From the NCBI GenBank assembly GCA_913060865.1, contig CAJXTU010000001.1, positions 372,001-436,000 on the forward strand: a DNA stretch of 64,000 nt. The letters are read 5' to 3'. Position 1 is the first letter of the stretch; every line of letters begins with the position of its first letter. Position numbers and translations under genes: made by a program. The DNA comes from an uncultured Cycloclasticus sp. GTDB lineage: Bacteria; Pseudomonadota; Gammaproteobacteria; Methylococcales; Cycloclasticaceae. The notes below the pieces were generated by a model. The model did not search any database. It worked only from the letters and a program-made list of their open reading frames with translations, and had not been told where the DNA came from. Of this stretch, positions 7,966-55,714 are shown piece by piece.

Positions 7966-9330
7966 TTACCGAATAATTAAGAAAAAGGCGCTATTATCGC
8001 GTTGTATATTAAGAAGTAGTGAGCTACGCCCCTTCGCGGCGTTGATAAGTTCAATGACATTATGAACAGGTGCGCGATTAGCTCTAGTGATGATGTCGCC
8101 TTTGCGTAAACCGTTGAGCCAGGCCTTAGAATTGCTGGCAACGTCAATCACCTTAATGCCCTGTTTAACGTTGTGTTGCTTCTTGCTATCAGATAAGTTT
8201 GATAGTTTAGCACCAGCAAGCTGAGGGTGAATGCGCGCTCCATCTACAAAGGCGATTTTACGTTTACCAATTTTAAGGGTGACTTGTTGTTGTTCGCCAT
8301 TACGTAAAATTTGTAAGGTCGCTTTATCACCAACACTCAAAAGACCTAGGTTATTCCGAAGGCTAGAGCTATTCTTGGTTAATTTGCCATTCACGCTTAG
8401 TACAATATCGCCAGGGCGTAAATTTGCTTTTTCAGCGGGTGAGTTAGTGTCAACTTGGCTGATAATAACGCCATATTTGATGTTGAGATTAAACGCTTGG
8501 GACAGGTCAGGCGTTAAATCTTGCACGACAATACCGAGTTGGCCGCGATTTACTTTGCCAAATTTAACTAGCTGTTGCTGCAAGCTAATAGCCATATTGC
8601 TAGGTATTGCAAAGCCAATGCCAACATTACCACCATTAGGCGCGATAATAGCAGTGTTAATGCCGATCAGCTCGCCCCTAAGGTTAACTAAAGCGCCACC
8701 CGAATTGCCAGGGTTAATAGAGGCGTCTGTTTGAATGAAATCTTCGTAACCTTCAATGCCAAGACCGGAGCGCCCAAGCGCGCTAATAATGCCAGATGTT
8801 ACCGTCTGGCCAAGACCAAAAGGGTTTCCAATCGCAATAACAAAATCACCAACGCGTAGCTGATCCGAATTTGCAATCGGTAGGTCGGTTAGTTTGTCCG
8901 CTTTTATTTGGATGACGGCCACATCGGAATCAGGGTCGCTGCCAACTATTTTGGCATTAAACGAGCGACCATCTCGTAGCGTCACAGTGATTTTATCGGC
9001 TTTGTCGATGACGTGATGATTAGTGATAATAAAGCCTTTGTTCGCATCAACGATAACGCCTGAGCCTAAACTTTGGGTAGAACGTTTTCTTGGTGCGTTA
9101 GGTATTTGGAAAAAACGACGAAAGAAAGGGTCTTGTAATAATGGATTCTCATGTTGTTGAGCCATACTTTTGGTGGCAATATTAACAACAGCAGGGGTCA
9201 CTCTTTCCAAGGTAGGTGCCAAGCTTGGTAGAGGCTGACCCTCGACGAAAGCTGGAATAGCCGCATAGGATGCGGAGTGGTTAAGGATAACAAGTAAACC
9301 AATGAATAGGGCGTTTTTGAATGTGGACAT
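7966..9330 (-). CDS. degQ: Do-like periplasmic serine endoprotease (DegQ/DegP family)
   Basis: 454 residues: a signal peptide (cleavage near SASYAA, residue 24), a trypsin-like domain, and two PDZ domains (about 255-345 and 375-454). The catalytic triad can be read as His106 (TNHHVI), Asp136 (DPDSDVAV) and Ser210 (GNSGG). It cleaves or refolds damaged envelope proteins in the periplasm. The Q-linker-free, mid-length form fits DegQ/MucD better than long-loop DegP. The exact paralogue assignment is inferred from length and the loop region only. It is 16 bases downstream of the DUF6524 gene. Confidence 0.9.
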   Translation of the reverse strand: MSTFKNALFIGLLVILNHSASYAAIPAFVEGQPLPSLAPTLERVTPAVVNIATKSMAQQHENPLLQDPFFRRFFQIPNAPRKRSTQSLGSGVIVDANKGFIITNHHVIDKADKITVTLRDGRSFNAKIVGSDPDSDVAVIQIKADKLTDLPIANSDQLRVGDFVIAIGNPFGLGQTVTSGIISALGRSGLGIEGYEDFIQTDASINPGNSGGALVNLRGELIGINTAIIAPNGGNVGIGFAIPSNMAISLQQQLVKFGKVNRGQLGIVVQDLTPDLSQAFNLNIKYGVIISQVDTNSPAEKANLRPGDIVLSVNGKLTKNSSSLRNNLGLLSVGDKATLQILRNGEQQQVTLKIGKRKIAFVDGARIHPQLAGAKLSNLSDSKKQHNVKQGIKVIDVASNSKAWLNGLRKGDIITRANRAPVHNVIELINAAKGRSSLLLNIQRDNSAFFLIIR

Positions 9331-9346: not shown

Positions 9347-9766
9347 TTATTGATCTACATCATCAGCGTCAACTTGACCGCTCATGCGACGACGAATATG
9401 TGACCAAGACATGCCAGTCGCCATAATGAAGCATAGAATAGTTTGAATGATGTAAGTCACGGCTTGGATGTTATCTGCAGCAACAATACCCCAATCAATG
9501 ACCATCCAAAAAAGAGTACCAAAAAATGCGACAGCCAATGCAATACCAATGAAACCAAGAGAGCGCAAGGTGGCACGTATATAAACAACCCAGCCAATGA
9601 TTAGGATCAAACCTGCAAAAGCCATAACAGGGGTAATGTCTGGAATTTTTATAATGGCCCAGTGGTAATACGATACGCCAGCAGGGTTATAGCTGAGAAA
9701 TACAAGCAATGATGCAACGCATAAACGAATAAAAAAACTAGATGGAGAGAACTGGTTTGCTTTCAA
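9347..9766 (-). CDS. DUF6524 family membrane protein
   Basis: A protein of about 139 residues with four hydrophobic helices. The N-terminal block FFIRLCVASLLVFLSYNPAG and the following YYHWAI resemble the uncharacterised DUF6524 family. The open frame reaches further upstream, but the best start is the TTG at 9766, which has an AGGGG ribosome-binding site about 6 bases before it. It appears to be the first gene of the minus-strand run through pepN. The 214-base upstream gap shared with the divergent coiled-coil gene holds no promoter that I can place confidently. Confidence 0.7.
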   Translation of the reverse strand: MKANQFSPSSFFIRLCVASLLVFLSYNPAGVSYYHWAIIKIPDITPVMAFAGLILIIGWVVYIRATLRSLGFIGIALAVAFFGTLFWMVIDWGIVAADNIQAVTYIIQTILCFIMATGMSWSHIRRRMSGQVDADDVDQ

Positions 9767-9980
9767 TGAGTAACCCCTAATGATCAATTTTACGTTACCG
9801 TTATTCTAACCGAAAAATGCTGAATTCTTAATGAACGTTCAACTTCGTTTAAAGAGAACGGACTTAGGACCGTGATGTGATTGGCAAAATGTGAATTTCT
9901 AACGGCGAATAAGCACCATTTTTGCGGCATGAACTACACTGTGTTGTGTATAACGTTAAAAGTTGATTAGACTAGGCTAT

Positions 9981-12900
9981 ATGAGCGCACGACGACATCA
10001 AAATAATCAAGATATTTTAAAGAACTTTATTCCTTTAAATACCTTGCCGAGTGCGCGTCTTACTAGTATTTTTGATAAGTGTCATGTTGAAGAGCTCGAT
10101 AAAGGGGCAGTTCTGTTTGAACAGGGCGATGAGGCTAAGGAATTCATTTATCTTATTAGCGGCATGGTTAGTTTGTACGCGGGTGAAATGGAAATCGAGA
10201 CTATCGTAACAGGCTCTGAAGTGGCTCGGTTTGCAATAGCGCATCACCTTCCTCGTAAGGTTAAGGCGGTTACTCGATCAAAAGCACGCGTCGTGCGTAT
10301 TCCTACTCATATGCTTGATATGGAAACCCCTGAGGATAATGGTCAGACCTATATGGTTGATGAGGTGGAAGACCAAGGTGGTGACTGGATGACGACGATG
10401 TTGCAATCACCAGTTTTTCAACGATTGCCAGCGACCAATTTGCAAAAAGTAATGATGCAAATGGAAGAAGTCGCTTTTGCAGCAGGTGATGATGTTGTTA
10501 AGCAGGGCGATGAGGCGGATTTTTATTACATCATCAAAACGGGTGATTGCGAGTTAATTCGTCAAGCTTCTGACGAATCAAGACCGATAAAATTGGGTGA
10601 GTTACATAGCTGTGACGCGTTTGGCGAAGATGCCTTGCTGTCTGGTAACCCAAGAAATGTGACTGTTAGAATGAAAGGCAAGGGGCAAATGCTCCGCCTT
10701 TCAAAATCTAACTTTATTGCGCTAGTTAAAGAACCTGTTCTGCAATACGTGGATTTTGAGGAAGGGCAGAAGAAAGTAACAGGTGGTGCGAACTGGTTAG
10801 ATGTTCGAAGTGTGGATGAGTATGAAGAAGGCTCCATTGAAGGGAGTGTCAATATCCCCTTCTTTTCTCTTCGAATGAAAATTCCCGAGTTACGTCATGA
10901 TCAGCTACAGGTGTTAGTTTGTGCTAATGGACGAACCAGTGAAGCAGCCGCTTTTTTATTATTGAAATTTGGTTTCAATGCCTTAATCTTAAAAGGTGGT
11001 ATGGCAAAATGGGGTGGCGAGATAGCTGTAGGGGACACGTTAGCTAAGGGATCAGTTTCAGCAGCCCCCGCGACTCTTAAAGAAACTGATGTGACAACGA
11101 TCCCAGTTGCAAACACGAAGGCTGAGCAAAGCAAAATAATAGAGCTCGAAAAGCTTTGTGCGCAGTCCAACGAGAAGATTAACACGCTTACTATAGAGCG
11201 AAATAGTCTCCAGCAACAATATGAGCAGCAATCCAATTTAGTCTCAGAACTGCAAATGTCCTCTCAAACATTTGCGGATGAACTTGAGGCTATTCGTAGT
11301 CACGGTGAAAAGCGTGAAATAGAAATAGGTCAACTGCTAGCGCTTGAGCGAGAAAAAAGTGCAGCACTGCAAACTGAGATTGATCAATTTCATGAATCAT
11401 TTGACGTTTTGAATGCGGATGTTTCCGTAAAAGATAACGAGTTAATAACGCTTAAATCGGCATTAGCAAATACTGAAAAGGAAAAAGAGGAAGCGGTTAA
11501 TAAGCTTGGTCAGCAATTACTCGCGGCTAAGCAAGAAGTGGCTAACCTTGTTAGTCAAAAAGAATCAATAAACGCGAGTGCTGAAGAAGCAAGACGTGAA
11601 GTTGACCAGTTGTCTCAGTCTAAATTGTTGCTTGAGCAGCAAATAGAGCAATCTGTACAGGATTTAAGTTTAGGTGTCTCAGAAAAAGAAACGCGAATTA
11701 GTGAGCTCAATGCTGATCTGTACGAGTTGCGTTCAAGTTTAGCGGATGCCGAGCAATCAAAAGTAATTCAGGAGAAAAACCTACTTGAGCTAACGGCTGA
11801 GCTTGAGCAAGTGAAAGAGAGCGAAAAAAAGGCAATCGAAGCACTTAAGGTTGAATCGGAGGCCCGTGCCGAAAAGTTGGAAAACGAATTGAGGGGTTTG
11901 AAGCAAGAGTTAGCCGAAAAAACAATAAATTTAGAAGAGAAAGTAGGCAGTGTTCGCGAGTTTAAAACCCAAATTGAGTCTTTAAAAGAAAAAAACAAAA
12001 ATGCTGAATCGATAGTTCTTGAAAAGAATGCCGAAATTGACGCCTTTACGGGGCAATTAAATGCGGCTGAGGCCAATATCACGACGCTTGAGCAGCAACA
12101 ATCAGATTTTGCATCGTCATTGGCAGAAAAAGAAGCTGCGCTTGCTGATTCGGGTGAGAAACTGGCTTCCATCAATGACGAGCGTGCCGTTTTAAAGAAG
12201 AAGTTAGAGCAGTCTGATGATGAGTTGACTAGCCTGTCGGCAGAGCGCTCGGAATTAGAAAAGCGGTTGAATGAGGCGCTAGAATCAATCAACCGCTTGA
12301 AAAGCGATGAGCAGGCGGCTTTAACTCAAGCTGATAGCCTAAAACAGCAGAATGAAAAAGCAGAAAAGGCATTAGAAAAATCAGCTGAAGAGTTGAGGCA
12401 ATCAGATGCTCAGGTTCAAAAACTTGAGCAAGAGTCAGAAGAGCTGAGTGAGCAAGTGAAACGTTTACAGGCTTCGCTAAACGAAATAAATTCTGGTAAA
12501 GCCACCGTTGAAAGTGAGTTAACACAGCGACTCACAGACTCTGATAATAAACTAACTAGCGTGTTAGAGAGTAAGCGAGAGGTAGAAAAACAGCTTGATA
12601 ACGTAACAAACGAACAGGTGCATGCCCAACAAAAATTATTAGAGTTGGAAGCACAGTTAGAAGCGGGGTTAGATGATCGGCGAGAACTTAATGAGAAGTT
12701 AACCCAAGTACAAGAGGAGTTAGAACTTGTTCGCCAAGAAGGCGATGAAGAGAAAGCGGAATTAAGCGAATCGCTGCTACAAGCTAACGCCCGTTTTGAA
12801 GAAACAGAAGCGGTACTTAAACAGTTATCTGAGGAGCAGGCGATAGCTGTTCAGCAGCATCAACAACAACTTGCCAAGATAGAAAGTGATCTAGCGGCGA

Positions 12901-14435
12901 CTAAGGATGCTAAATCAACGGTTGAATTGACGCTAGAAAGTGTTGAGTCCGAAAAAGAATTGGCTGGGCAGGCGCTGTTGGCGCTGCAAGCTCAGGTTGA
13001 TAATGACTTGGGCGAACGGCAGCAACTGAAAGAGCAATTGGCTCAAGCACAACAAAAAGTTGATGAGGGGAATAAAGAAAGAGAGGAAGAGCGGGTTAAT
13101 TGGGTGGCTGCCCTTGAACAATCGAAAGAACAGCTTGTTGCATTAGAGGGTTCGTCGATTGAGCGTTTAAAGCAGGTAGAAGAAAAACATGCCAACCAAG
13201 TGAGCGGGCTTGAGAGTGAACTTGAGCGGGTCAACGGTGAGAATTTATCTAGCAATGAAGAGCTTGCGTCAGCACATGCAGATAATAAGGTATTGCAGCA
13301 AAAACTAATGGATGCGGAAACCATCTTGTCAGCATCAACAGGAGATCAAAAAGCATTATTAGCGCAGTTAGATGAAGCGCGTACTGAATCAGCTGGATTT
13401 AAAAAAGTTATTGAGTCAAATCAGGCAAAACTTGATACGTTTGTAGACGTTAAAATAGAACTTGAGGAAGCGTTAGCTGAATCTAAAAACTTGTTTGAAG
13501 AGTCATGTGTTGCTACTGAAAAAGCTGAGCTGCGTTGTAATGAGCTATCAAGTGCTTTAGAGGCGTTATCATCGGAGCAACAGGCTGAAACTCGTTTATT
13601 GAATGAACAGTTGGCTGAGTTGGGCGATAGCTGTCAGCAATATGAGAAAGAAGTTCGTGTATTAGGTGATAGCCTCCAAGCAACAGAGGCGAGCTTATCT
13701 TCTGCTGTTTCTGAAAAAGAAGCGCTGTTGCTTCAATTAGAGGAGCTTGAACAAGGTAAATTATCAGATAGTGTGGTTGTACAAGCTCTTGAGCAAAAAA
13801 TCACTGAGTTAGAACAATCGTTGCAGCAACTCGAAGAGGAAAAAGAGCGAGTCATTGCAGATGTTGGAAAAGGTGGTAATGAAAAGGTCGTTCAGTTAAC
13901 AGAGCAGTTATTAGCTGCGCAGAATGAAACTAAGCAGTCGTTGAAGCAGTTGAATGAAGCGATGAGCGCTTGCGAGGCAGAAGCGAAAGCAAAGGTTGAA
14001 CTTGCAGATAAATTAAAAGTGATGACTGATGAAAGCGATGATTTACGCCGTAACCTTAAAGACGCGCAAAGAGCCGCGACTAAAAATACCGACAGTAGTT
14101 TAGATCAGGCTCGAATAAAAGAACTAGAAAAGCAATTAAATGAAGCATCGACTATGTTGCTTGATTTAGAGATTAAAATGGAATCTGCCGCTGTAGATGC
14201 TGACGACGATTATAGTGAAGTGGAGACCGATGAGATAAAGGCGCTTCAATCAGAGTTAAACTTAGTAAGAGAGCAAACAGAAAAAGATATTCAAGCGATG
14301 CAGTTGAAAGTACAAAATAGCGAGAAAATGAATTTAGCATTGAAGAAAAAAATATTATCCATGCAAACTTTGGCGAATCAAGAAGTCTTGCCTGATGAGC
14401 CGCCTCAAGAAAAGAAAAAGGGCTGGTGGAAATAA
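9981..14435 (+). CDS. Cyclic-nucleotide-binding / rhodanese / giant coiled-coil protein
   Basis: Counting from the ATG at 9981 (preceded by TAGG), the product is 1484 residues. Order of parts: a degenerate cNMP-binding fold at about 20-115; a second cNMP-binding domain at about 140-255 with the phosphate-binding cassette FGEDALLSGNPRNVTV at 214-229, including the conserved Glu216 and Arg225; a rhodanese domain at about 270-350 with active-site loop CANGRTS (Cys314); then nearly uninterrupted Gln/Glu/Leu/Lys-rich heptad-like sequence from about 382 to 1465; and a C-terminal tail KKKGWWK. No signal peptide or membrane span is visible. The rhodanese cysteine and cassette arginine being intact suggests real ligand binding and sulfur or redox chemistry. 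The function is unknown. It overlaps the downstream Rieske gene by 10 bases. Confidence 0.85.
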   Translation: MSARRHQNNQDILKNFIPLNTLPSARLTSIFDKCHVEELDKGAVLFEQGDEAKEFIYLISGMVSLYAGEMEIETIVTGSEVARFAIAHHLPRKVKAVTRSKARVVRIPTHMLDMETPEDNGQTYMVDEVEDQGGDWMTTMLQSPVFQRLPATNLQKVMMQMEEVAFAAGDDVVKQGDEADFYYIIKTGDCELIRQASDESRPIKLGELHSCDAFGEDALLSGNPRNVTVRMKGKGQMLRLSKSNFIALVKEPVLQYVDFEEGQKKVTGGANWLDVRSVDEYEEGSIEGSVNIPFFSLRMKIPELRHDQLQVLVCANGRTSEAAAFLLLKFGFNALILKGGMAKWGGEIAVGDTLAKGSVSAAPATLKETDVTTIPVANTKAEQSKIIELEKLCAQSNEKINTLTIERNSLQQQYEQQSNLVSELQMSSQTFADELEAIRSHGEKREIEIGQLLALEREKSAALQTEIDQFHESFDVLNADVSVKDNELITLKSALANTEKEKEEAVNKLGQQLLAAKQEVANLVSQKESINASAEEARREVDQLSQSKLLLEQQIEQSVQDLSLGVSEKETRISELNADLYELRSSLADAEQSKVIQEKNLLELTAELEQVKESEKKAIEALKVESEARAEKLENELRGLKQELAEKTINLEEKVGSVREFKTQIESLKEKNKNAESIVLEKNAEIDAFTGQLNAAEANITTLEQQQSDFASSLAEKEAALADSGEKLASINDERAVLKKKLEQSDDELTSLSAERSELEKRLNEALESINRLKSDEQAALTQADSLKQQNEKAEKALEKSAEELRQSDAQVQKLEQESEELSEQVKRLQASLNEINSGKATVESELTQRLTDSDNKLTSVLESKREVEKQLDNVTNEQVHAQQKLLELEAQLEAGLDDRRELNEKLTQVQEELELVRQEGDEEKAELSESLLQANARFEETEAVLKQLSEEQAIAVQQHQQQLAKIESDLAATKDAKSTVELTLESVESEKELAGQALLALQAQVDNDLGERQQLKEQLAQAQQKVDEGNKEREEERVNWVAALEQSKEQLVALEGSSIERLKQVEEKHANQVSGLESELERVNGENLSSNEELASAHADNKVLQQKLMDAETILSASTGDQKALLAQLDEARTESAGFKKVIESNQAKLDTFVDVKIELEEALAESKNLFEESCVATEKAELRCNELSSALEALSSEQQAETRLLNEQLAELGDSCQQYEKEVRVLGDSLQATEASLSSAVSEKEALLLQLEELEQGKLSDSVVVQALEQKITELEQSLQQLEEEKERVIADVGKGGNEKVVQLTEQLLAAQNETKQSLKQLNEAMSACEAEAKAKVELADKLKVMTDESDDLRRNLKDAQRAATKNTDSSLDQARIKELEKQLNEASTMLLDLEIKMESAAVDADDDYSEVETDEIKALQSELNLVREQTEKDIQAMQLKVQNSEKMNLALKKKILSMQTLANQEVLPDEPPQEKKKGWWK

Positions 14436-14818
14436 TAGAGGTTGATGGTGACAAGTATGTGCAAGCAGTAGAGGTTGAAACGCTTGCATGCTTAAGCTCT
14501 AGAGCGTTTGAGGTCGATCTGGGGGATAGGGGCGCTTGTAGTGGTTTTCTGTTGCGTGAGAAAGATATGACGTTGCGAGCTTACAAGAACAGTTGTCCCC
14601 ATACAGGGGCTCCATTGAATTGGACACCAGATCAATTCTTGACGAGGGCTGGCTTATATATTCAATGCTCTATTCACGGTGCGATGTTTAAAACACAGAA
14701 TGGAGAGTGTTTTGCGGGGCCCTGTACTGGGAAATTTTTAAAGGCGTTACGATTTATTGAAAAAGACGGAATGTCTTATATCGCTTTACTTGATATAGAA
14801 AAAAGCCCGTCAATTTGA
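14426..14818 (+). CDS. Small Rieske [2Fe-2S] ferredoxin-like protein
   Basis: The 130-residue protein has one Rieske domain. The ligands are seen as CPHTG near residue 53 and CSIHG near residue 77 (the C-x-H and C-x-x-H pairs). It lacks a catalytic oxygenase domain, so it is likely an electron carrier or regulatory iron-sulfur protein. The start is a GTG at 14426 with AGGG upstream; it overlaps the end of the coiled-coil gene by 10 bases, so translation is coupled. The stop codon lies inside a terminator hairpin. Its partner is unknown. Genetic coupling suggests it acts with the cNMP/rhodanese coiled-coil protein. Confidence 0.82.
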   Translation: MEIIEVDGDKYVQAVEVETLACLSSRAFEVDLGDRGACSGFLLREKDMTLRAYKNSCPHTGAPLNWTPDQFLTRAGLYIQCSIHGAMFKTQNGECFAGPCTGKFLKALRFIEKDGMSYIALLDIEKSPSI

Positions 14819-14827
14819 CGGGCTTTT
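14801..14827. terminator. Bidirectional rho-independent terminator
   Basis: A 13-bp inverted repeat, AAAAGCCCGTCAA and its complement, separated by one base, followed by a T run on the plus strand and an A run on the other side. It can end both the plus-strand coiled-coil/Rieske transcript and the opposing rpmB-rpmG transcript. The hairpin overlaps the last codons and stop of the Rieske gene. Confidence 0.9.
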
Positions 14828-14884
14828 TAAATGCTCTTTAACAGATTATTGCCTGCATGGAAGCTTAAGCTGAGTAGCTAAACG

Positions 14885-22449: not shown

Positions 22450-25128
22450 ATGTCTGTCGATCAATTTCCTTCCACCTTCAATGCAAATGACACCGATCCG
22501 CAGGAAACAAAAGAGTGGCTCGAAGCACTTGAGGCGGTGATAGAGCATGAGGGGGAAGACAGGGCGCATTTTTTGCTTGAAACGTTAATTGAAAAGGCCC
22601 GGCTTGCTGGGGCAGATATTCCGTTTAGCGCCAGTACAGCTTATGTCAATACTATTAGTGTTCCGCAACAGGCGCAATATATTGGAGATACGTCTTTAGA
22701 ACATAAAATACGATCATACGTGCGTTGGAATGCGATGGTGATGGTGCTGCGAGCTAATAAGGATACCAATGTTGGTGGGCATATTGCCAGCTTTGCTTCA
22801 TCAGCTACTTTATATGACGTAGGCTACAACCATTTCTGGCACGCGGCGAGTGAAACACACGGAGGTGACTTGGTGTATGTGCAGGGTCATGTTGCGACCG
22901 GTATTTATGCTCGGGCTTTTATGTTGGGACGGTTGACTGAAGAACAAATGGACGGGTTTCGTCAAGAAGTTGATGGTGGCGGGCTTTCTTCTTACCCACA
23001 CCCTTGGTTGATGCCAGACTTTTGGCAATTCCCGACTGTTTCGATGGGCCTAGGCCCTATTATGGCGATTTATCAAGCGCGTTTTATGAAGTACGTTGAA
23101 GATCGTGGTTTTGCAAAAACAGACAATAGAAAAGTCTGGGCATTTTTGGGTGATGGCGAGACAGATGAGCCGGAATCTTTAGGTGCTATCGGTATGGCTG
23201 GGCGTGAAAAATTAGGCAATCTTGTGTTTGTTATTAACTGTAATTTGCAGCGCCTTGATGGCCCTGTTCGAGGAAACGGAAAAATCATTCAAGAGCTAGA
23301 GTCTGAATTTAGAGGGGCGGGCTGGAATGTTATTAAAGTTATTTGGGGCAATCGTTGGGATGCGTTATTAGCGCGCGACACAGAAGGGCATCTTCGCCGC
23401 CGAATGATGAATTGTGTTGATGGTGATTATCAGACGATGAAGGCCAAAGATGGCGCATATGTTCGAGAAAACTTTTTTAATACACCTGAATTAAAAGCGA
23501 TGGTCGCTGATTACTCAGATAAAGATATTTGGGACTTAAACAGAGGCGGACATGATCCCTCAAAAGTATATGCAGCCTATGAAGCGGCGTGTAAAGAATT
23601 AGAAAAACCAACCGTTATTTTAGCTAAAACCATTAAGGGTTATGGCATGGGCGAGTCGGGCGAGGCGCAAAATACGACTCACCAACAAAAGAAAATGAGC
23701 CATAAGTCCTTACTTCATTTTAGAGATAAGTTTGATTTGCCTATTTCAGATGAAGATGTTGATAACCTCGCTTATTTAACCTTTCCTGACGGATCGCCAG
23801 AGCAAACATATATGAAGAAAAAACGTGCAGATTTGGGTGGCTACCTCCCTGCGCGTCGTGAAAAGTCTGACTCATTGAAAATACCGGATTTATCAGTATT
23901 CCAGCCGATGTTGAAAGGCACCTCAGAAGGGCGCGAAATCTCTACAACAATGGCCTTTGTTCGGTTGTTAAATATTCTGTTGAAAGACAAGGAAATTGGT
24001 AAGCGTATTGTGCCTATCGTGCCAGATGAGTCGCGGACATTTGGCATGGAGGGTTTGTTTCGTCAGTTAGGTATTTGGTCGCAAGTAGGGCAGTTGTACA
24101 CGCCACAAGACTCAGATCAGCTGATGTTCTACAAAGAAGATAAAAATGGCCAAGTGTTGCAAGAAGGTATTAATGAAGCGGGCGGCATGTGTGATTGGAT
24201 CGCGGCGGGTACGTCATATTCAACCAGCGATGTACCAATGATTCCATTCTATATCTTTTATTCGATGTTCGGCTTCCAGCGTATTGGTGATCTAATCTGG
24301 GCAGCAGCGGACCAACGTGCGCGCGGCTTTTTGTTGGGTGGAACTGCAGGGCGAACGACGCTGAATGGTGAAGGTCTGCAACATGAGGATGGGCATAGTT
24401 TGTTATGGGCATCGTCTGTGCCAAACTGTATTTCATACGACCCAACGTTTAATTATGAATTAGCGGTCATCACACATGATGGCTTAAAGCGGATGTTCCA
24501 AGAGCAAGAAGACGTTTTTTACTACCTAACGGTGATGAATGAAAACTATGCTCACCCTGCCATGCCAGAAGGTGCGGAAGATGGCATTATTAAAGGGATG
24601 TATTTATTTAAAGAAGGCGCAGAAAAAAGTCAGTTACGAGTTCAGTTGTTAGGCTCTGGCACTATCTTTAATGAAGTGATAGCGGCGGCTGAATTACTAC
24701 GGGCCGATTGGGGTGTTGAGTCAGACTTATGGAGCTGTACAAGCTTTACCGAGCTGGCGCGTGAAGGACAAGCGTGTGAGCGCGAAAATCGTTTGAAGCC
24801 GACACAAGAAAAACAAATACCTTATGTTTCAGCCTGTTTAAATGAGCGCCAAGGTCCGGTTATCGTATCAACAGATTATGTTCGCTTATTAGCCGATTCA
24901 ATTCGTCCCTTTATTCGTAAACACTGTTCTATCTTAGGAACCGATGGTTTTGGGCGTTCAGATACACGTGAGAATCTTCGTCGTTTCTTTGAAGTAGATC
25001 GCTATTACGTAACCGTTACGGCACTAAGTGCATTGGCAGATTTAGGCGAAATTGAAGTAGCTGTGGTTGAGCAAGCCATAGATAAATATGGTTTAGACGC
25101 TTCAAAACCTGCGCCATGGTTAGTTTAG
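22450..25128 (+). CDS. aceE: Pyruvate dehydrogenase E1 component, homodimeric type
   Basis: The 892-residue protein matches E. coli AceE in length. The thiamine diphosphate region GDGETDEPESLGAIG is near residue 234 and the downstream NCNLQRLDGPVRGN segment near 262. It decarboxylates pyruvate and reductively acetylates the lipoyl groups of E2. The ATG at 22450 has GGAG upstream. It is the first gene of aceE-aceF-lpd. The 169-base upstream gap contains no palindrome I would assign to PdhR. Confidence 0.97.
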   Translation: MSVDQFPSTFNANDTDPQETKEWLEALEAVIEHEGEDRAHFLLETLIEKARLAGADIPFSASTAYVNTISVPQQAQYIGDTSLEHKIRSYVRWNAMVMVLRANKDTNVGGHIASFASSATLYDVGYNHFWHAASETHGGDLVYVQGHVATGIYARAFMLGRLTEEQMDGFRQEVDGGGLSSYPHPWLMPDFWQFPTVSMGLGPIMAIYQARFMKYVEDRGFAKTDNRKVWAFLGDGETDEPESLGAIGMAGREKLGNLVFVINCNLQRLDGPVRGNGKIIQELESEFRGAGWNVIKVIWGNRWDALLARDTEGHLRRRMMNCVDGDYQTMKAKDGAYVRENFFNTPELKAMVADYSDKDIWDLNRGGHDPSKVYAAYEAACKELEKPTVILAKTIKGYGMGESGEAQNTTHQQKKMSHKSLLHFRDKFDLPISDEDVDNLAYLTFPDGSPEQTYMKKKRADLGGYLPARREKSDSLKIPDLSVFQPMLKGTSEGREISTTMAFVRLLNILLKDKEIGKRIVPIVPDESRTFGMEGLFRQLGIWSQVGQLYTPQDSDQLMFYKEDKNGQVLQEGINEAGGMCDWIAAGTSYSTSDVPMIPFYIFYSMFGFQRIGDLIWAAADQRARGFLLGGTAGRTTLNGEGLQHEDGHSLLWASSVPNCISYDPTFNYELAVITHDGLKRMFQEQEDVFYYLTVMNENYAHPAMPEGAEDGIIKGMYLFKEGAEKSQLRVQLLGSGTIFNEVIAAAELLRADWGVESDLWSCTSFTELAREGQACERENRLKPTQEKQIPYVSACLNERQGPVIVSTDYVRLLADSIRPFIRKHCSILGTDGFGRSDTRENLRRFFEVDRYYVTVTALSALADLGEIEVAVVEQAIDKYGLDASKPAPWLV

Positions 25129-25149
25129 AGCGTGTGACAGGAGAATTTA

Positions 25150-26739
25150 ATGAGTAATTTAATAGAAGTAGCGGTTCCAGATATTGGTGATTTTGATGCG
25201 GTCGAAGTGATTGAAGTGCTCGTCGCGGTTGGTGATACAGTTGAAGTAGAGCAGGCCTTGCTGACACTTGAAAGCGATAAGGCTAGTATGGAAATACCAT
25301 CATCATCAGCAGGCATAGTTGAAGAGATTTTAGTTTCCGTAGGAGACTCAGTAGCTGAAGGTACAGTGGTTGTTCGTTTAAAACAGGCAGATGCGCCAGC
25401 AATTGCGCCTGCCCCAGTGACTCAAGAAACTGCGCCAAAGGTGGCTGACGAGAAGCAGGCTGAAGATATTAATATTTATGTCCCAGATATTGGTGACTTT
25501 GACTCAGTCGAAGTGATCGAGGTGAACGTTGCTGTCGGCGATGTGGTAGAACAAGAACAAGCGTTACTGACCCTAGAAAGTGATAAGGCCAGTATGGAAA
25601 TTCCATCAACAGCCGCAGGAACAATTAAAGATATTAAAGTTGCTGTTGGTGATCAAGTTTCAGAAGGTGGCTTAATTATTGTTTTATCGGGGCAAACGAG
25701 TGCAGCGGAACCCGCTGTTAATAATTTAACGCCAGCGCCTCAACCAGCAGAAAAAATGCCAGCGAAGGCTTCTCCAAAAGCGGCATCGGTTGCGAGTGTT
25801 GCTTCGACACCTGTTATGTCTAAACCAGGGGGGAAGATTCATGCGAGTCCTGCTGTTCGTAAATTTGCAAGAGAGTTGGGTGTTGATTTGTCAGTTGTCA
25901 CAATAGCTTCTGGGCCTAAAGGGCGGCTTCTAAAAGAAGATATTAAGAATCACGTTAAGAAAATGATATCGGGAGCATCAGCGCCAACTGGGTCATCAGG
26001 CTCAGGTATACCGCCTATTCCAACCGTAGATTTTACAAAATTTGGTGAGATTGAGGAAAAGCCACTCAGCAAGATTAAGCGACTAACGGGTACTAACCTG
26101 ACACGAGCTTGGCTGAATGTTCCCATGGTGACGCATCATGAGTTAGCTGATATTACCGAGATGGAGGCATTTCGAAAATCGTTAAAAGCGGATGCAGAAA
26201 AACGTGGTGTTAAAGTGACGTTCTTAGCGTTTATCATGAAAGCCTTAGTGGCGGCGTTAAAGGAATTCCCCCAATTTAATGCTTCTTTATCAGCAGATGG
26301 TAACAGTCTGATTTACAAAAAATATTACAACATTGGCATAGCCGTGGCGACACCAAATGGTCTTGTTGTACCGGTCTTTAAAGATGTTGATAAAACCAAT
26401 ATTTTTGACTTGGCTGAACAGATGGGTGTGATCAGTAAAAAAGCGAGAGATGGCAAGCTATCGCCAAAAGAAATGCAGGGTGCCTGTATGACTATCTCAA
26501 GTTTGGGTGGCATTGGTGGTACTTCGTTTACACCTATAGTAAATGCACCTGAGGTGGCTATATTGGGAGCCACACGTGCGGATATTCAGCCTGTTTGGGA
26601 CGGTAAAGAATTTGTGCCAAGGCTAATGTTGCCATTGGACATGACATACGATCATCGGGTGATTGATGGTGCTGATGCGGCGGCCTTTATGGTGGCGCTA
26701 TCAGGGTATCTAAATGATATCCGTCGCGTGTTGTTGTAG
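25150..26739 (+). CDS. aceF: Dihydrolipoamide acetyltransferase (pyruvate dehydrogenase E2)
   Basis: 529 residues. Two N-terminal lipoyl domains carry the lipoylated lysines Lys44 and Lys146 in ESDKASMEIPS, separated by Ala/Pro-rich linkers. They are followed by a peripheral-subunit-binding domain (ASPAVRKFARELGVDL near residue 231) and the catalytic acyltransferase domain ending in DHRVIDGADAAAF. E2 forms the core of the complex and passes acetyl groups to CoA. It lies 21 bases after aceE, with AGGAG before its ATG. Confidence 0.97.
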   Translation: MSNLIEVAVPDIGDFDAVEVIEVLVAVGDTVEVEQALLTLESDKASMEIPSSSAGIVEEILVSVGDSVAEGTVVVRLKQADAPAIAPAPVTQETAPKVADEKQAEDINIYVPDIGDFDSVEVIEVNVAVGDVVEQEQALLTLESDKASMEIPSTAAGTIKDIKVAVGDQVSEGGLIIVLSGQTSAAEPAVNNLTPAPQPAEKMPAKASPKAASVASVASTPVMSKPGGKIHASPAVRKFARELGVDLSVVTIASGPKGRLLKEDIKNHVKKMISGASAPTGSSGSGIPPIPTVDFTKFGEIEEKPLSKIKRLTGTNLTRAWLNVPMVTHHELADITEMEAFRKSLKADAEKRGVKVTFLAFIMKALVAALKEFPQFNASLSADGNSLIYKKYYNIGIAVATPNGLVVPVFKDVDKTNIFDLAEQMGVISKKARDGKLSPKEMQGACMTISSLGGIGGTSFTPIVNAPEVAILGATRADIQPVWDGKEFVPRLMLPLDMTYDHRVIDGADAAAFMVALSGYLNDIRRVLL

Positions 26740-45488: not shown

Positions 45489-48400
45489 ATGGCGCAAACA
45501 GAAAAACATACACAGCTTTTAGACTTGTTAAAGCAGCGAATTTTACTGCTAGATGGCGCTATGGGTACGATGATTCAGTCCTATGGCTTCACCGAAAGTG
45601 ATTATCGCGGTGAACGTTTTGCTGATTGGGCCAGTGATATTCAGGGCAATAACGATTTATTATCTTTAACTCAGGCGGATACTATTCGTGCTATTCACTT
45701 AGCGTATCTTGAAGCAGGCGCGGATATTGTAGAAACGAATACCTTTAATGCAACCCGTGTGGCGATGGCGGATTACGATATGCAGGATTTATCGTATGAA
45801 ATTAATGAGCAATCTGCTCGTATTGCCCGCAAAGCCGCTGATGATATTGAAGCGAAATACCCAGATCGTGTGTGTTTTGTTGCGGGCGTTTTAGGTCCAA
45901 CAAACCGTACGGCGAGTATCTCGCCAGATGTAAATGACCCTGCGTTTAGAAACATTACTTTTGATGAACTGGCTGAAGCCTATACCGAGTCAATTGATGC
46001 CTTGATTAAAGGCGGGGCTGATATTTTATTGGTCGAAACTATTTTTGATACCTTAAATGCGAAAGCAGCTTTATATGCGATTGAAACGTATTTCGAAACG
46101 CATAGCGTAGAATATCCGGTGATGATTTCCGGCACGATTACCGACGCATCGGGGCGGACGCTGTCAGGCCAAGTAACAGAAGCATTTTGGAACTCTGTCC
46201 GCCATATTAAGCCGGTTAGCATTGGCTTTAATTGTGCCTTGGGTGCGGAAGAGTTGCGTCAATATGTAGAAGAGTTATCGCGTGTTGCCGACACGTATGT
46301 CTCAGCGCATCCCAATGCGGGTTTGCCGAATGAATTTGGCGGTTACGATGAAACGCCAGAAGACATGGCGAGGCATATTCGTGAGTGGGCACAAAGTGGG
46401 TTCTTAAATATTATTGGTGGCTGTTGTGGCACATCACCTGAATTTATCACCGCGATGAAAGAAGCTGTGAGCGGTTGTGCTTCAAGGCAAATACCCGAGT
46501 TAGAGGTAGAGTGTCGTTTGTCTGGCTTAGAGCCGATGAATATCACCAAAGACTCTTTGTTTATCAATGTGGGTGAGCGAACTAACGTAACGGGGTCTGC
46601 GCGATTCAAGCGGTTGATTAAAGAGCAAGATTACGAAACGGCGTTAGATGTAGCGAGACAACAAGTAGAAAGTGGCGCGCAAATCATTGATATTAATATG
46701 GACGAGGGCATGCTCGAGTCTAAGTCTGCTATGGTTCGTTTCTTAAGTTTAATTGCTGCTGAGCCGGATATTTCAGTGGTGCCGGTCATGATTGATTCAT
46801 CCAAGTGGGATATTTTGGAAGCCGGCTTAAAGTGCGTGCAAGGCAAAGCCATTGTAAACTCCATTAGTTTGAAAGAAGGCGAAGAAAACTTTATTGAGCA
46901 AGCAAAAACCATCATGCGTTACGGCGCAGCGGTTATTGTGATGGCGTTTGATGAAGTAGGGCAAGCCGATACGTTTGAACGCAAAGTAGAGATTTGTACG
47001 CGGGCTTATAAGGTGCTGACTGACAAGGCAGGGTTTCCAGCAGAAGATATTATTTTTGACCCTAATATTTTTGCCGTCGCAACGGGTATTGATGAGCACA
47101 ACAATTACGCGGTCGACTTTATCGAAGCGACGAAGGTTATTAAGCAAACATTACCACATGCCATGGTATCGGGTGGTGTATCAAATGTGTCATTTTCATT
47201 CCGTGGGAACAATACCGTGCGCGAAGCGATTCATGCGGTGTTTTTATACCACGCCATTAAAGCTGGTATGGATATGGGTATCGTTAATGCTGGGCAATTG
47301 GCAGTGTATGACGATATCCCAGATGAATTACGTGAAGCTGTTGAAGATGTGATTTTGAATCGCGTACCCAAACAAGGTGAAAGCGCGACAGAAAATCTCT
47401 TAGAGATTGCAGCCAAATACCTTGATGGTGATTCGGAAGAGGCGGTAAAAGAAGCGGCAGAATGGCGCTCTTGGCCGGTTAAAAAGCGTTTAGAGCATGC
47501 GTTAGTTAAAGGCATTACTGAGTTTATTGAAGAAGACACAGAACTGGTTCGGCAAGAAGTTGATCGTCCCTTACATGTGATTGAAGGGCCATTAATGGAT
47601 GGCATGAACGTGGTGGGCGACTTGTTTGGTGAGGGTAAAATGTTTTTACCCCAAGTGGTTAAATCGGCGCGCGTGATGAAAAAAGCGGTGGCCTATTTAA
47701 TGCCCTTTATGGAAGAAGAAAAGGGCAATGTGATTGCCAGTAACGGCAAGGTGTTAATGGCGACTGTCAAAGGTGACGTGCACGATATCGGCAAAAACAT
47801 TGTCGGTGTGGTGTTGCAATGTAATGGCTTTGAGGTGATCGATTTGGGTGTCATGGTGCCTGCGGATACTATTTTAAAGCAAGCGCGTGAACATAAGGTT
47901 GATGCCATTGGTTTGAGCGGTTTGATAACGCCATCACTTGATGAAATGGTGCATATGGCGAAAGAAATGGAGCGACAAGGGTTTAAGATGCCCCTAATGA
48001 TTGGTGGCGCAACAACATCACGCGCGCACACAGCGGTTAAAATCGAACCGAACTATCACGGAGCGAGTGTATACGTGACCGACGCTTCTAGATCGGTGGG
48101 CGTTCTAACAAATTTGATGGATAAAGATGCGGCCAATGATTACCAGCAAAAAGTTCGTGATGAATACGCAGAAGTACGTGAGCGACATAAAGGCCGCCAA
48201 TCAACCAAACGTCAACTGAATATTGAAGATGCGCGCAATAATGCCACAGAGATTGATTGGGCTAGCTTTACGCCTGTTAAACCGAGCTTCTTAGGTACAA
48301 AAGTACTCAATGAGTTTCCATTAGAAGAGATCGCTAAATTTATTGATTGGTCGCCATTTTTCCAAACATGGGAGTTAGTGGGCAGTTATCCAAAAATACT

Positions 48401-49202
48401 TGACGATGAAATTATTGGTGAACATGCGCGTGATTTATTTAAAGATGCGCAAGCCATGTTGCAGAAGGTTGTTGATGAAAAATGGCTAACGGCGCGCGCG
48501 GTGTTTGGGTTTTATCCAGCGAATAGTCGGGTAGATGACGTAGTGGTTTATGCAGATGAGTCGCGTACAAACGAAACAGCAGTGTTGCATCAGCTGCGTC
48601 AACAAAACATCAAACCGCCAGGGCGTAAAAACTATTGCTTAGCCGACACAGTAGCGCCAGAAAAATCAGGTATTAATGATTATATCGGCGCATTTGCTGT
48701 TACAGCAGGTATTGGTATTGAAGAGCACGTAAAAAGATTTGAAGCAGAGCACGATGATTACCAATCCATTATGATCAAAGCAATAGCCGATCGTTTAGCG
48801 GAGGCGTTTGCAGAATGCTTGCATCAACAAGTGAGAAAAGAGTATTGGGGTTACGCGGCGGATGAATCGTTAACAAACGACGATTTAATTAAAGAGACAT
48901 ACAAGGGTATTCGTCCTGCACCAGGTTATCCTGCGTGCCCAGATCATACGGAAAAAGCCACGTTGTTTTCATTATTAAATGCGACTGAAGAAGTGGGTAT
49001 TGAGTTGACTGAAAGTTTCGCCATGTACCCAACAGCAGCAGTGAGTGGTTGGTACTTTGCGCACCCTGATGCTCAGTATTTTAACGTCGGCAAGTTAAAA
49101 AAAGACCAAGTGGAAGACTACGCGCAGCGTAAAGGCGAAAGTTTGGACTATATAGAACGCTGGTTAGCTCCAAGCCTTGCTTACGATCCAGATGATAGCT
49201 GA
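45489..49202 (+). CDS. metH: Cobalamin-dependent methionine synthase
   Basis: The 1237 residues cover all four modules: a homocysteine barrel (zinc cysteines in GFNCALGA and GGCCGTS), a pterin barrel ([15 protein letters not shown]), the cobalamin domain with its cap (DVHDIGKN, the axial histidine motif) and the AdoMet reactivation domain ([12 protein letters not shown]). Length matches E. coli MetH. It methylates homocysteine from methyltetrahydrofolate. No cobalamin riboswitch is recognisable in the short leader. The ATG at 45489 lacks a clear ribosome-binding site. Its last 11 bases overlap the glutaredoxin-like gene. Confidence 0.97.
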
Positions 49203-51098: not shown

Positions 51099-52778
51099 AT
51101 GAAATCAATAGCTCTTGCTACTTTTATGCTCCTTGCCTTATCGGCATGTAATACGGTTTCTTTTAAACCATCCGATCAACATATCCAGGAAACACCTAAA
51201 CCGGTTGGCAGCCCTCCAAAGGTATTGGAATCTATTCCATTGCCTGAGAAACCTTCAGCTAAAAAACAAATGGAAGTATTTACGGTCGTTGTCAATGATG
51301 TGCCAGTACGAGAGCTGTTGTTTGCGATTGCGCGTGATGCGAATATCAATATCGATATAGTTGAAGATGTATCAGGGGAGGTAACATTAAACGCTATAGA
51401 TCAGACGTTCGAAGAAATTTTAGAAAGAATAAGTCATCAAGTTGATATTCGCTATAGCGTAGTAAACACCATAGTGAAAATTGAGTTAGATGCACCATAC
51501 ATTAAACATTACGAAGTTAGTTATGTGAATATGGATAGAGGTAGCACAGCAACCATTGCGATTGCTACAGAAGTATCTTCTACAGGCGGTGGTTCAGGGT
51601 CGGAGTCTACCGTTGGTAATACCTCTAACACTAGTATCACAAATAATTCAAATCATCGATTCTGGACGACGATTGTTAATAATATTAGAAATATTGTTGG
51701 GCAAAACGACTCGGAGAATAACGCTACCGAAGAGGTGACTGAGGTCTTAGAAGGCACAACTGATGCATTAGTGGGTCAAGCTGGTGAAGGGCCGCCTGCT
51801 GAGGGCGATGAAACGGAAACAATGAGGACTAGTAGGCAGGCAGTTATGGCTAGTCCTGAAAGTGGAATGATTAGTGTTTTCGCAACTCAGCGCCAACACC
51901 GTGAAGTGGAAAACTACTTAGAGCTTGCGTTAGAGGGGGTTCAACGACAGGTTTTTATAGAGGCTACTATTGTTGAAGTTGATTTGAATGATGACTATCA
52001 GGCTGGTGTTGATTGGAGTCGTTTACTAACAAACCCCGCGGGCGACGGGTTTGGTTTTGAGCAAACATTAACCGGTAATAATCTATTAGATGCACCTACT
52101 ACAGCACTTCAGTATGTAGCATCGGGTGATAAGTTTAATGTTACTGCAACGGTAAGGATGTTAAACCAGTTTGGTAATGCAAAAATATTATCAACACCAA
52201 AGATTATGGCACTTAATAATCAGACAGCCTTGTTAAAAGTGGTCGATAACCGCGTGTATTTTACGATCAATGTTGAGACTGAAACAAATGATAACAACAC
52301 AATACGCACATTTGAATCCATTATTCATACATTGCCTGTTGGTTTAGTGATGAGTGTGACTCCTCAGATATCTTCAAGTGATGAGGTAACGTTAAACGTT
52401 AGACCCACTATTTCTCGTATATTGCGGTTTGTTTCAGACCCTAATCCAGCGTTAGGTGATGTGGAAAGTTTGATTCCTGAAGTGTCCGTGAGGGAAATTG
52501 AATCCATTCTACGAATAAAAAATGGGGATGTTGCTGTCATTGGCGGCCTGATGAAAGATAACCGCAGTAAAAGTACAGATGGTATTCCTCAGTTGTCAAA
52601 ATTACCATTTGTTGGGGACCTATTTAGTTATAAAGACAATAAAGCGTCTAAATCTGAGTTGGTTATCTTCCTAAAGCCAATCGTTGCTAATAAACCGTCG
52701 CTCGGTGGGGAGTTTGCCAAATATAAACACTATATTGAAAATGCAGAAGAAAGCTCAAGGTCAGGTAATGCAAAATGA
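51099..52778 (+). CDS. mshL: MSHA pilus secretin MshL
   Basis: The 559-residue lipoprotein has lipobox LSAC (Cys17) after a signal peptide, a secretin short domain (about 62-125, VVVNDVPVRELLFAIARD), a variable Ser/Thr/Asn-rich insert at about 155-250, and a C-terminal secretin beta-domain (VFIEATIVEVDLNDDYQAG near 284; VAVIGGLMKD near 468). It forms the outer-membrane pore for the pilus. The 129-base gap before it is AT-rich and may hold a promoter. It overlaps mshN by 4 bases. Confidence 0.9.
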   Translation: MKSIALATFMLLALSACNTVSFKPSDQHIQETPKPVGSPPKVLESIPLPEKPSAKKQMEVFTVVVNDVPVRELLFAIARDANINIDIVEDVSGEVTLNAIDQTFEEILERISHQVDIRYSVVNTIVKIELDAPYIKHYEVSYVNMDRGSTATIAIATEVSSTGGGSGSESTVGNTSNTSITNNSNHRFWTTIVNNIRNIVGQNDSENNATEEVTEVLEGTTDALVGQAGEGPPAEGDETETMRTSRQAVMASPESGMISVFATQRQHREVENYLELALEGVQRQVFIEATIVEVDLNDDYQAGVDWSRLLTNPAGDGFGFEQTLTGNNLLDAPTTALQYVASGDKFNVTATVRMLNQFGNAKILSTPKIMALNNQTALLKVVDNRVYFTINVETETNDNNTIRTFESIIHTLPVGLVMSVTPQISSSDEVTLNVRPTISRILRFVSDPNPALGDVESLIPEVSVREIESILRIKNGDVAVIGGLMKDNRSKSTDGIPQLSKLPFVGDLFSYKDNKASKSELVIFLKPIVANKPSLGGEFAKYKHYIENAEESSRSGNAK

Positions 52779-54010
52779 GCCTGTTGCTAGATGCCTTAAA
52801 ACAGGCTGAAAAACAAAAGAACGCTGAAAGTACTAATGGTGAAGATCTACCAGAGAGTGAAGTTGATGAGATAGAGTTTATTTTAGATGAGCCTGTTGAG
52901 CAAGAACTTACTTCTGTGCCAGTAAATGAAATTAAGGTTTCTGAGCCCAAAGAAATTCCTTCGTTGGTTGAAAAGAAAATAGACGTTTCGATAGAAACAC
53001 CAAGTAATGAAAATAAAAAAATACGTGAAGACAAAACGGATGGGCTACCTCTCGATTCGAGTTTAAATGTTTTTGCGGTTGGAAATGTGCCTTCGAGCAA
53101 GGGCCGGAATAAAAAATACACGTTAATAGGGCTAGCCGTTCTGGTTATTGTTTTACTGGCAGCCAGTATGTGGTATTTGTTTGAGAATGAGTCCACAAGT
53201 GATTTTTCTGAGCAGTTGATAGAAGGTGATCCGTTAATAAATGAACGTGAAGCATTGGAGGAGGTCAGTAATATGCAGTCAACTCCTACGCCACCTCCGC
53301 TGGCCGGTGTGACTAATAAAATAACAACACCAGTTGAAAATATTAAAAAATCTTCATTAGCACTAATATCAGAGGATGAGATTGCAAAGCCTAGCGCTAG
53401 CACGGGTATAAAAATTAAAAAAAGAATTATTTCAGTGGGTGTGTTTACTCAAATAGACGCTGCTTATAAAGCAATGCAACTTGGTAAGCTAGCCCAAGCA
53501 AAGTCTATTTATTTAAAAGTACTTAAATCAAGGCCAAACCAAGTAGATGCTTTATTGGGGCTAGCCAATATTGAAGTCCATGAAGGTTCGAAACAAAATG
53601 CAATAACACTGTATGAAAAGGTGCTTGCTAAAGAACAAACGAACGTAGTTGCACAGCTAGGGTTATTACAAATTTATTCAAATAAAGCACCATTAGCTAA
53701 ACAACAGATATTGGAAGAGTTATCTAGTAAACATCCCAAAAACATAAGTGTTTTAAAGGCACTTGGGCAATCACTTTCTGCGCAATCTAAGTGGGCTAAA
53801 GCGCAAGAAATTTATTTTAAAGGGTATTCATTACAACCAAACAGTGTGTTCTTTACTTATAACTTAGCTGTTAGTTTGGACCAATTAGGTAAAGGGTCTG
53901 CGGCGTCCAGCTATTACGAAAAAGCAATAAATTTAAACAAAAATGCTTCTGACCCCGTTGATATAACTGCAATTGAAAATCGGTTGCAAGAATTAAGGGG
54001 TGCAAAATGA
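52775..54010 (+). CDS. mshN: MSHA biogenesis TPR protein MshN-like
   Basis: 411 residues: N-terminal SLLLDALKQAEKQK, a motif shared by MshN/GspB-like pilus and secretion proteins; an acidic cytoplasmic stretch; a transmembrane helix at about 115-135; a Pro/Thr-rich linker; and three to five tetratricopeptide repeats at about 225-400 in the periplasm. It probably helps secretin assembly or stability. It overlaps mshL at its start and mshE at its end (ATGA junctions), so these genes are translationally coupled. Confidence 0.85.
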   Translation: MSLLLDALKQAEKQKNAESTNGEDLPESEVDEIEFILDEPVEQELTSVPVNEIKVSEPKEIPSLVEKKIDVSIETPSNENKKIREDKTDGLPLDSSLNVFAVGNVPSSKGRNKKYTLIGLAVLVIVLLAASMWYLFENESTSDFSEQLIEGDPLINEREALEEVSNMQSTPTPPPLAGVTNKITTPVENIKKSSLALISEDEIAKPSASTGIKIKKRIISVGVFTQIDAAYKAMQLGKLAQAKSIYLKVLKSRPNQVDALLGLANIEVHEGSKQNAITLYEKVLAKEQTNVVAQLGLLQIYSNKAPLAKQQILEELSSKHPKNISVLKALGQSLSAQSKWAKAQEIYFKGYSLQPNSVFFTYNLAVSLDQLGKGSAASSYYEKAINLNKNASDPVDITAIENRLQELRGAK

Positions 54011-55713: not shown

Positions 55714-55714
55714 T

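Follow-up and report, generated by a model that had tools for sequence, protein, structure and literature searches.

Cyclic AMP (cAMP) is thought to act in most bacteria through CRP alone, as stated in two papers (PMC11139211, PMC7247823). A receptor other than Vfr is described in Pseudomonas aeruginosa, namely CbpA, a polar cAMP-binding protein whose function was not known according to the source papers (PMC3019171, PMC3419228, PMC7247823). The protein described here is encoded in a window of 64,000 nucleotides (positions 372,001 to 436,000 of contig CAJXTU010000001.1, assembly GCA_913060865.1) in the 2.43 Mb genome of an uncultured Cycloclasticus sp.; it joins two cyclic-nucleotide-binding (CNB) domains and a rhodanese domain to a long coiled coil, and its gene is overlapped by that of a Rieske protein. 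From its sequence and those of its relatives we propose, with moderate confidence, that this giant protein acts as a cAMP receptor outside transcription and includes a rhodanese, on a coiled-coil tether that evolves fast and has a conserved tip; like CbpA, it would be a cAMP receptor other than Vfr. In CbpA, as in the giant protein, the first CNB domain is reportedly degenerate and the second intact; we know of no coiled-coil rod in CbpA, and the two proteins may be kin. A short head homologue in genome G221, whose gene order resembles that of a pseudomonad, was considered as CbpA itself and set aside because its position differs from that of PA4704.

Other described systems resemble single parts of the giant protein. 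Tandem CNB domains are shared with the regulatory subunit of protein kinase A (PKA-R), and the second CNB domain (CNB-B) of the giant protein is near those of PKA-R and PKG in both sequence and model. Unlike PKA-R, the giant protein has a first cassette without Glu, and a rhodanese and a rod in place of the docking region; no kinase partner is known to us for it. The rhodanese fold, with its active-site Cys in a loop, is shared with the NADH-dependent persulfide reductase CoADR-RHD, and the domain matches the sequence models of both single rhodaneses PspE and GlpE, but it is fused to CNB domains and not to a flavin reductase. The Rieske protein resembles BphF and the NDO ferredoxin in its one-domain fold with two Cys and two His ligands; it differs from them in having no oxygenase gene beside it in the window, in two further invariant Cys residues and in its link to the giant protein. 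Family 2B encapsulins also carry a cyclic nucleotide monophosphate (cNMP) domain on a structural protein, whereas the giant protein lacks their HK97 shell domain and has a different scaffold. In cysteine-desulfurase (family 2A) encapsulin operons rhodaneses are enriched as accessory genes (PMC8346489).

The open reading frame of the giant protein extends over positions 9963-14435 of the forward strand and begins with a TTG; read from the ATG at 9981, the protein has 1,484 residues. The main features of the locus are as follows.

9981..14435, + strand: giant CNB-CNB-rhodanese-coiled-coil protein, 1,484 residues (open reading frame and Pfam)
10089..10310, + strand: first CNB domain, residues 37-110; Arg92 present, R83 in the place of the cassette Glu (PF00027 over cut-off, alignment)
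10470..10730, + strand: second CNB domain, with its phosphate-binding cassette intact, residues 164-250; Arg225 encoded at 10653-10655
10785..11015, + strand: rhodanese domain, residues 269-345; Cys314 of the active site encoded at 10920-10922
11106..13919, + strand: coiled-coil rod, residues 376-1313, in which the heptad signal is clear
13920..14390, + strand: remaining proline-free tail with weak heptad signal, residues 1314-1470
14301..14432, + strand: conserved C-terminal tip, residues 1441-1484, ending in EKKKGWWK
14426..14435, + strand: overlap of the giant gene and the Rieske gene, 10 nt
14426..14818, + strand: one-domain Rieske [2Fe-2S] protein, 130 residues; ligands C57, H59, C81 and H84

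An earlier sequence-only reading of this DNA had proposed two cNMP-type folds in a 1484-residue protein, the second with an intact cassette containing Arg225, and a rhodanese with active-site Cys314, all of which the open reading frame, Pfam and the alignment bear out. Both CNB copies exceed the PF00027 cut-off (86.1 bits for the whole protein, cut-off 27.5), and the rhodanese scores 56.4 bits for PF00581 (cut-off 22.2), with the catalytic Cys in the loop C314-A-N-G-R-T. The second cassette reads F214-G-E-D-A-L-L-S-G-N-P-R225 and thus includes G215 and E216; in the alignment of 75 heads its GE pair is kept in all, Arg225 in 71 and Cys314 in 68, so that homologues without the cassette Arg or the rhodanese Cys are few. 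In the first CNB domain Arg92 is kept in all 73 readable relatives and the cassette Glu is present in none. The AlphaFold2 model of residues 1-345 has a mean confidence score (pLDDT) of 81, which falls under 50 in the link at 115-134. The CNB-B model aligns with the PKA-R structure 6rsx at Z 19.8 and a root-mean-square deviation (rmsd) of 1.6 over 129 residues, and the rhodanese model with the persulfide reductase 3ntd at Z 17.6 and rmsd 1.2 over 93 residues. A Pfam search detected no DNA-binding domain in the window protein. The head probably binds cAMP, and the rhodanese is likely to be the output domain of the receptor.

The CNB-CNB-rhodanese head was found in 172 of the 369 sampled genomes of the class (E 1e-20) and apparently represents a widespread, undescribed family. 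Its distribution follows that of adenylate cyclases: a class I or class III enzyme was found in 169 of the 172 genomes with the head vs 82 of the 197 without it, and class I alone in 99/172 vs 9/197. The genome of the window itself encodes a class I cyclase (PF01295), and no class III cyclase (PF00211) was detected in it. Among 61 relatives, scored by eye with 'absent' based on single-domain matches only, class I is present in 37 of the 47 with a head (one head being a fragment) vs 2 of the 14 without, and of these two genomes one is 58% complete. Joint absences carry more weight than these counts. Eight of the ten Cycloclasticus genomes at least 90% complete have both the head and a class I cyclase, and the other two, G016 and G017, have neither. 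CRP is reduced to a 63-residue match in G016 and has none in G017; the other eight keep a match, which in G005 is in two pieces with a stop. Four of the Cycloclasticus CRP matches, those in G000, G004, G012 and G015, fall 1-3 bits short of the curated cut-off. Arg225 is missing from four of the 75 heads (G011, G019, G021 and G026), and all four genomes lack a class I cyclase hit, vs 4 of the 29 relatives that keep Arg225. The sensor proposed in the sequence-only reading is thus supported, and narrowed to cAMP, by co-occurrence and joint absence with adenylate cyclase. Because of the spread of the head family, its association with cyclases and the absence of a DNA-binding domain from the window protein, the family is a strong candidate for a branch of cAMP signalling that is common and does not act through transcription.

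A number of observations weigh against the giant protein being such a tethered receptor. The cyclase counts are uncorrected for lineage and genome size, and the joint absence in G016 and G017 may reflect one loss event, not two. Three of the Arg225-less genomes (G019, G021 and G026) have class III matches, and completeness is only 83-85% in two of the four. No cyclase was found in three genomes with the head (G144, G267 and G300), Arg225 being kept in the two that were read, and G027 has a cyclase and CRP but no head. The rhodanese Cys is absent from 7 of the 75 heads. Most of the 150 head matches listed, which are fewer than all matches and underlie the counts by frame length and those of Rieske genes downstream of long, middle and short forms, are short: 79 have frames below 450 residues, 8 of 450-600, 21 of 600-1000 and 42 of at least 1000. 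The proteins are about 345 to 2,000 residues long. Since 79 of these 150 frames are below 450 residues, the tether is not needed for the basic function of the head. A contact of the KKKGWWK end with the membrane is itself a guess.

Residues 376-1470 contain no proline at all, and Pfam gives no match above a cut-off in the tail. Its heptad periodicity is 6.5, compared with 1.9 +/- 0.3 in shuffles. When the tail was divided into overlapping blocks of 98 residues, 12 of the 13 starting at residues 376-1216 were significant (p<0.05), with the heptad frame shifting between blocks, and the signal was not significant in the three blocks starting at or after residue 1286. The sequence-only reading had taken about 1,080 residues as coil, with a possible span of about 160 nm; the rod is real, but the block-wise test leaves about 940 residues of convincing, stuttered coil and no continuous 1,080, and the predicted upper bound of its length is nearer 140 nm. 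The net charge over residues 386-1440 is -107. Identity to the three nearest relatives is 81-84% in the head, 40-47% in the rod and 66-84% in the last 44 residues, the composition of the rod being conserved while its sequence diverges. Because the rod evolves fast and both ends slowly, the pattern looks like that of a spacer, and the scaffold part of the earlier reading is upheld in this form.

The tip, which ends in EKKKGWWK, may make contact with the membrane or with a partner. Cycloclasticus proteins have KKKGWWK-like tips and lack the membrane helix and the formylglycine-generating enzyme (FGE)-sulfatase domain (PF03781) of many other long forms; PF03781 was likewise not found in the window protein. 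The C-termini of 32 of the 34 long proteins were aligned, excluding two which end at contig edges, and 17 of the 32 contain this domain. In L141, L138, L149, L154 and 13 other long homologues it lies in the C-terminal 235 residues, on the same chain as the CNB and rhodanese domains. Of the 17 proteins with the FGE end motif, 16 include a hydrophobic stretch of sufficient length to form a membrane helix, L148 having none; in the five proteins with domain coordinates it precedes the FGE domain by some 70-150 residues. The FGE-like domain would face the periplasm. It ends in RGGSxxS-like sequences at the site of the Cys pair of formylglycine-generating enzymes; this expected catalytic pair is absent, and two Cys are conserved at other positions. 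On a quick, midpoint-rooted tree of 73 of the 75 heads (two partial heads excluded) 8 changes between long and other forms are required, so that tails have repeatedly been gained or lost.

The next gene had been read as a one-domain Rieske protein overlapping the giant gene, and this is what is found. It starts with a GTG at 14426, within the last codons of the giant gene, so that 10 nt are shared up to the stop of the latter. PF00355 is matched with 41 bits (cut-off 20.3), and the C-x-H and C-x2-H ligands C57, H59, C81 and H84 are invariant in all 18 aligned relatives. The model (pLDDT 92.5), compared with the Protein Data Bank (PDB) only, is closest to the one-domain or dioxygenase Rieske ferredoxins 1fqt and 2qpz (Z 13.2, rmsd 2.2, 103-105 residues aligned), and no PDB sequence match was obtained at E 0.001. 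C95 and C100 (in the region 14594-14727) are also invariant, and extra chemistry is possible there. A perfect 14-bp inverted repeat ending in a T-run lies over the Rieske stop codon at 14800-14828 and folds with -19.4 kcal/mol (z -6); it was missed by a terminator scan, although the repeat search and folding both show the hairpin. Judging by the 10-nt overlap and this hairpin, the giant and Rieske genes appear to be transcribed together as a single unit. A promoter scan of the sequence gave as many matches as shuffled sequences, and the CRP-site pattern TGTGAN6TCACA with up to 2 mismatches gave 23 matches in the window, vs 28 +/- 6 by chance, and none in the gap upstream of the giant gene.

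Within Cycloclasticus the head occurs in 13 of 17 other genomes, once as a contig-edge fragment, and the Rieske gene in 14; the two adjoin in all 11 genomes, including that of the window, which have both on one contig. The overlap is 10 nt in 6 of 7 loci and 16 nt in the seventh, where the start was chosen by a script. Among the 150 listed matches, 19 of the 42 long forms have a Rieske gene of this type no more than 3 kb downstream in the same orientation, as has 1 of the 21 middle forms and none of the 87 below 600 residues; this count misses Rieske genes weaker than E 1e-15. Only 2 of these 19 are from Cycloclasticus, and in 10 of the 19 a gene for a PfkB-family kinase lies between the giant and Rieske genes. 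Because the pair is conserved in 11/11 Cycloclasticus genomes and 19/42 listed long forms, the sequence-only reading survives on this point. The association appears to be specific to long forms but not strict. At 27 head loci from other families of the order, where the proteins are mostly shorter and at least two loci end at a contig edge, a Rieske gene stands beside the head once (G018). In the 99% complete genome G016 the giant gene is absent from between the DUF6524 gene and the Rieske gene, which is kept in place (L084), and in G025 the Rieske gene is also kept without the giant gene, in the same place beside the protease. This Rieske type occurs in 91 of the 172 genomes with the head and 50 of the 197 others. 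The Rieske gene thus looks like a real but separable neighbour; the sensor, scaffold and conserved pair of the earlier overall interpretation stand, and G016 and the 1/27 other-family loci speak against a tight functional couple.

Two further explanations concern the Rieske gene. Its product could be an independent ferredoxin, for example one serving ring-hydroxylating dioxygenases, which merely shares the operon. Cycloclasticus are aromatic degraders, the model fold is closest to dioxygenase ferredoxins and the gene persists without the giant protein in G016; however, the proximity of fold covers many Rieske kinds, and among the listed matches another 17 genomes of the class, none of them Cycloclasticus, have the gene behind a long form, with PfkB between in 10 cases, which is unexpected for a catabolic ferredoxin. 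We regard this explanation as a serious but doubtful one. Alternatively, and in line with the sequence-only reading, the two proteins might form a redox or sulfur machine on a shared scaffold, in which cAMP would gate electron passage between the Rieske cluster and a persulfide on Cys314. The retention of Cys314 in 68 of 75 heads, the concentration of downstream Rieske genes in listed long forms (19/42, vs 1/21 and 0/87), the 10-nt overlap in 6/7 Cycloclasticus loci and the two extra invariant Cys residues would all fit. Against it are the Rieske genes kept without a giant protein in G016 and G025, the 23 of 42 listed long forms without an adjoining Rieske gene (some through contig ends) and the absence of the head from 50 of the 141 genomes that have this kind of Rieske gene; we also know of no precedent for persulfide chemistry with a Rieske cluster, and consider such a machine unlikely.

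The rod raises the remaining alternatives. A cytoskeletal (crescentin-like) or cortical filament former, with the CNB and rhodanese domains as regulatory decorations, would agree with some 940 residues of clear heptad signal, a composition kept while the sequence diverges and the net charge of -107. Most listed heads, however, have little or no coiled coil (79/150 below 450 residues), and the probable membrane helix and FGE-like domain of many long homologues are better suited to a tether, which makes a filament slightly less likely still than the redox machine. Kinship with SMC- or JetC-like DNA-handling proteins has next to no probability: the matches (72 bits for NCBIfam TIGR02168 against a cut-off of 567, and 22 bits for JetC in PADLOC) are confined to the rod, the SMC ones being far under the cut-off. 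No ATPase head exceeds a Pfam cut-off, AAA_13 reaching 16.5 of 36 bits, again within the rod, and this candidate was rejected. A phage or defence origin was also discarded, since neither the head nor the Rieske protein has a match in PHROGs and PADLOC gives the weak JetC coil matches only.

If the giant protein is a tethered, non-transcriptional cAMP receptor, cAMP made by the class I cyclase would bind the second CNB domain, and the change would travel through a short link to the adjoining rhodanese, where it could alter docking or the persulfide chemistry of Cys314. The rod would dimerise and hold the head away from the tip, which would be fixed at the membrane by a helix and FGE-like domain in many homologues and by the basic-aromatic KKKGWWK here. 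The Rieske protein, made from the same transcription unit, would probably take part as an electron carrier or as a client, without being obligatory for the process. A broader proposal, which we put forward only tentatively, is that the family forms a large class of bacterial cAMP receptors not described before. In these, the nucleotide would gate a rhodanese carried on a coiled-coil arm that can reach well beyond 100 nm; in many lineages the arm would pass through the inner membrane and lead to an FGE-like domain in the periplasm, with Rieske and PfkB proteins as partners. If true, cytosolic cAMP and an envelope-facing domain would be connected on one polypeptide in many lineages. The family may be one of the missing routes by which bacteria read cAMP, and its genes, the residues R225 and C314 and the joint absences seen in nature offer ways of probing the role of cAMP. 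Non-transcriptional cAMP receptors are already known; it is this architecture and its Rieske/PfkB neighbourhood that appear to be new. Among the openly licensed papers listed by literature searches, titles and abstract openings showed none on a CNB and rhodanese protein, which is weak evidence of absence.

Three further features flank the two genes.

7966..9330, - strand: putative serine protease of the DegP/HtrA type, often next to the head gene and divergent from it in the order
9347..9787, - strand: DUF6524 protein, divergent neighbour in the genus Cycloclasticus
14800..14828, no strand: intrinsic-terminator hairpin covering the Rieske stop codon, between convergent genes

The protease, which we take from its sequence to be of the DegP/HtrA type, sits behind the DUF6524 gene in Cycloclasticus and directly beside the head gene in 13 of the 27 loci from other families. 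Among 41 long forms with sufficient downstream DNA, a set chosen partly for adjacency, so that the counts are not an unbiased rate, and with Pfam identity taken from one example each, a PfkB gene lies downstream in 12 and a UPF0047 (YjbQ) gene in 3. PfkB genes between the giant and Rieske genes occur in several families (e.g. L136, L138, L141, L142, L144, L145, L146 and L152), and the UPF0047 gene is directly 3' of the giant gene in L149, L151 and L190. Upstream of the giant gene, L138, L147, L148, L151, L153, L154 and L155 have a gene for an HU-like DNA-binding protein, and a TerB gene is found in several. Small conserved open reading frames downstream of other homologues were set aside, as they look like shadow frames of another gene.

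Short, tail-less heads fall into two neighbourhood groups, L161, L163, L164 and L168, and L158, L160 and L165. Genes which are presumably rnhA/dnaQ-like and PP2C/FHA-like lie near one group, and others that we take to be ammonium-transporter/PII-like near the other, which suggests several specialised paralogues. A further short head gene, L156 (G192:C1:3074842-3075867), adjoins a class I cyclase gene on the opposite strand (G192:C1:3072605-3074389). Elsewhere in the window, positions 22450-26736 and 45489-49199 contain genes for pyruvate dehydrogenase E1/E2 and for a B12-dependent methionine synthase, and secretin and T2SSE-family ATPase genes at 51099-58461 likely belong to an MSHA- or type IV-pilus-like cluster.

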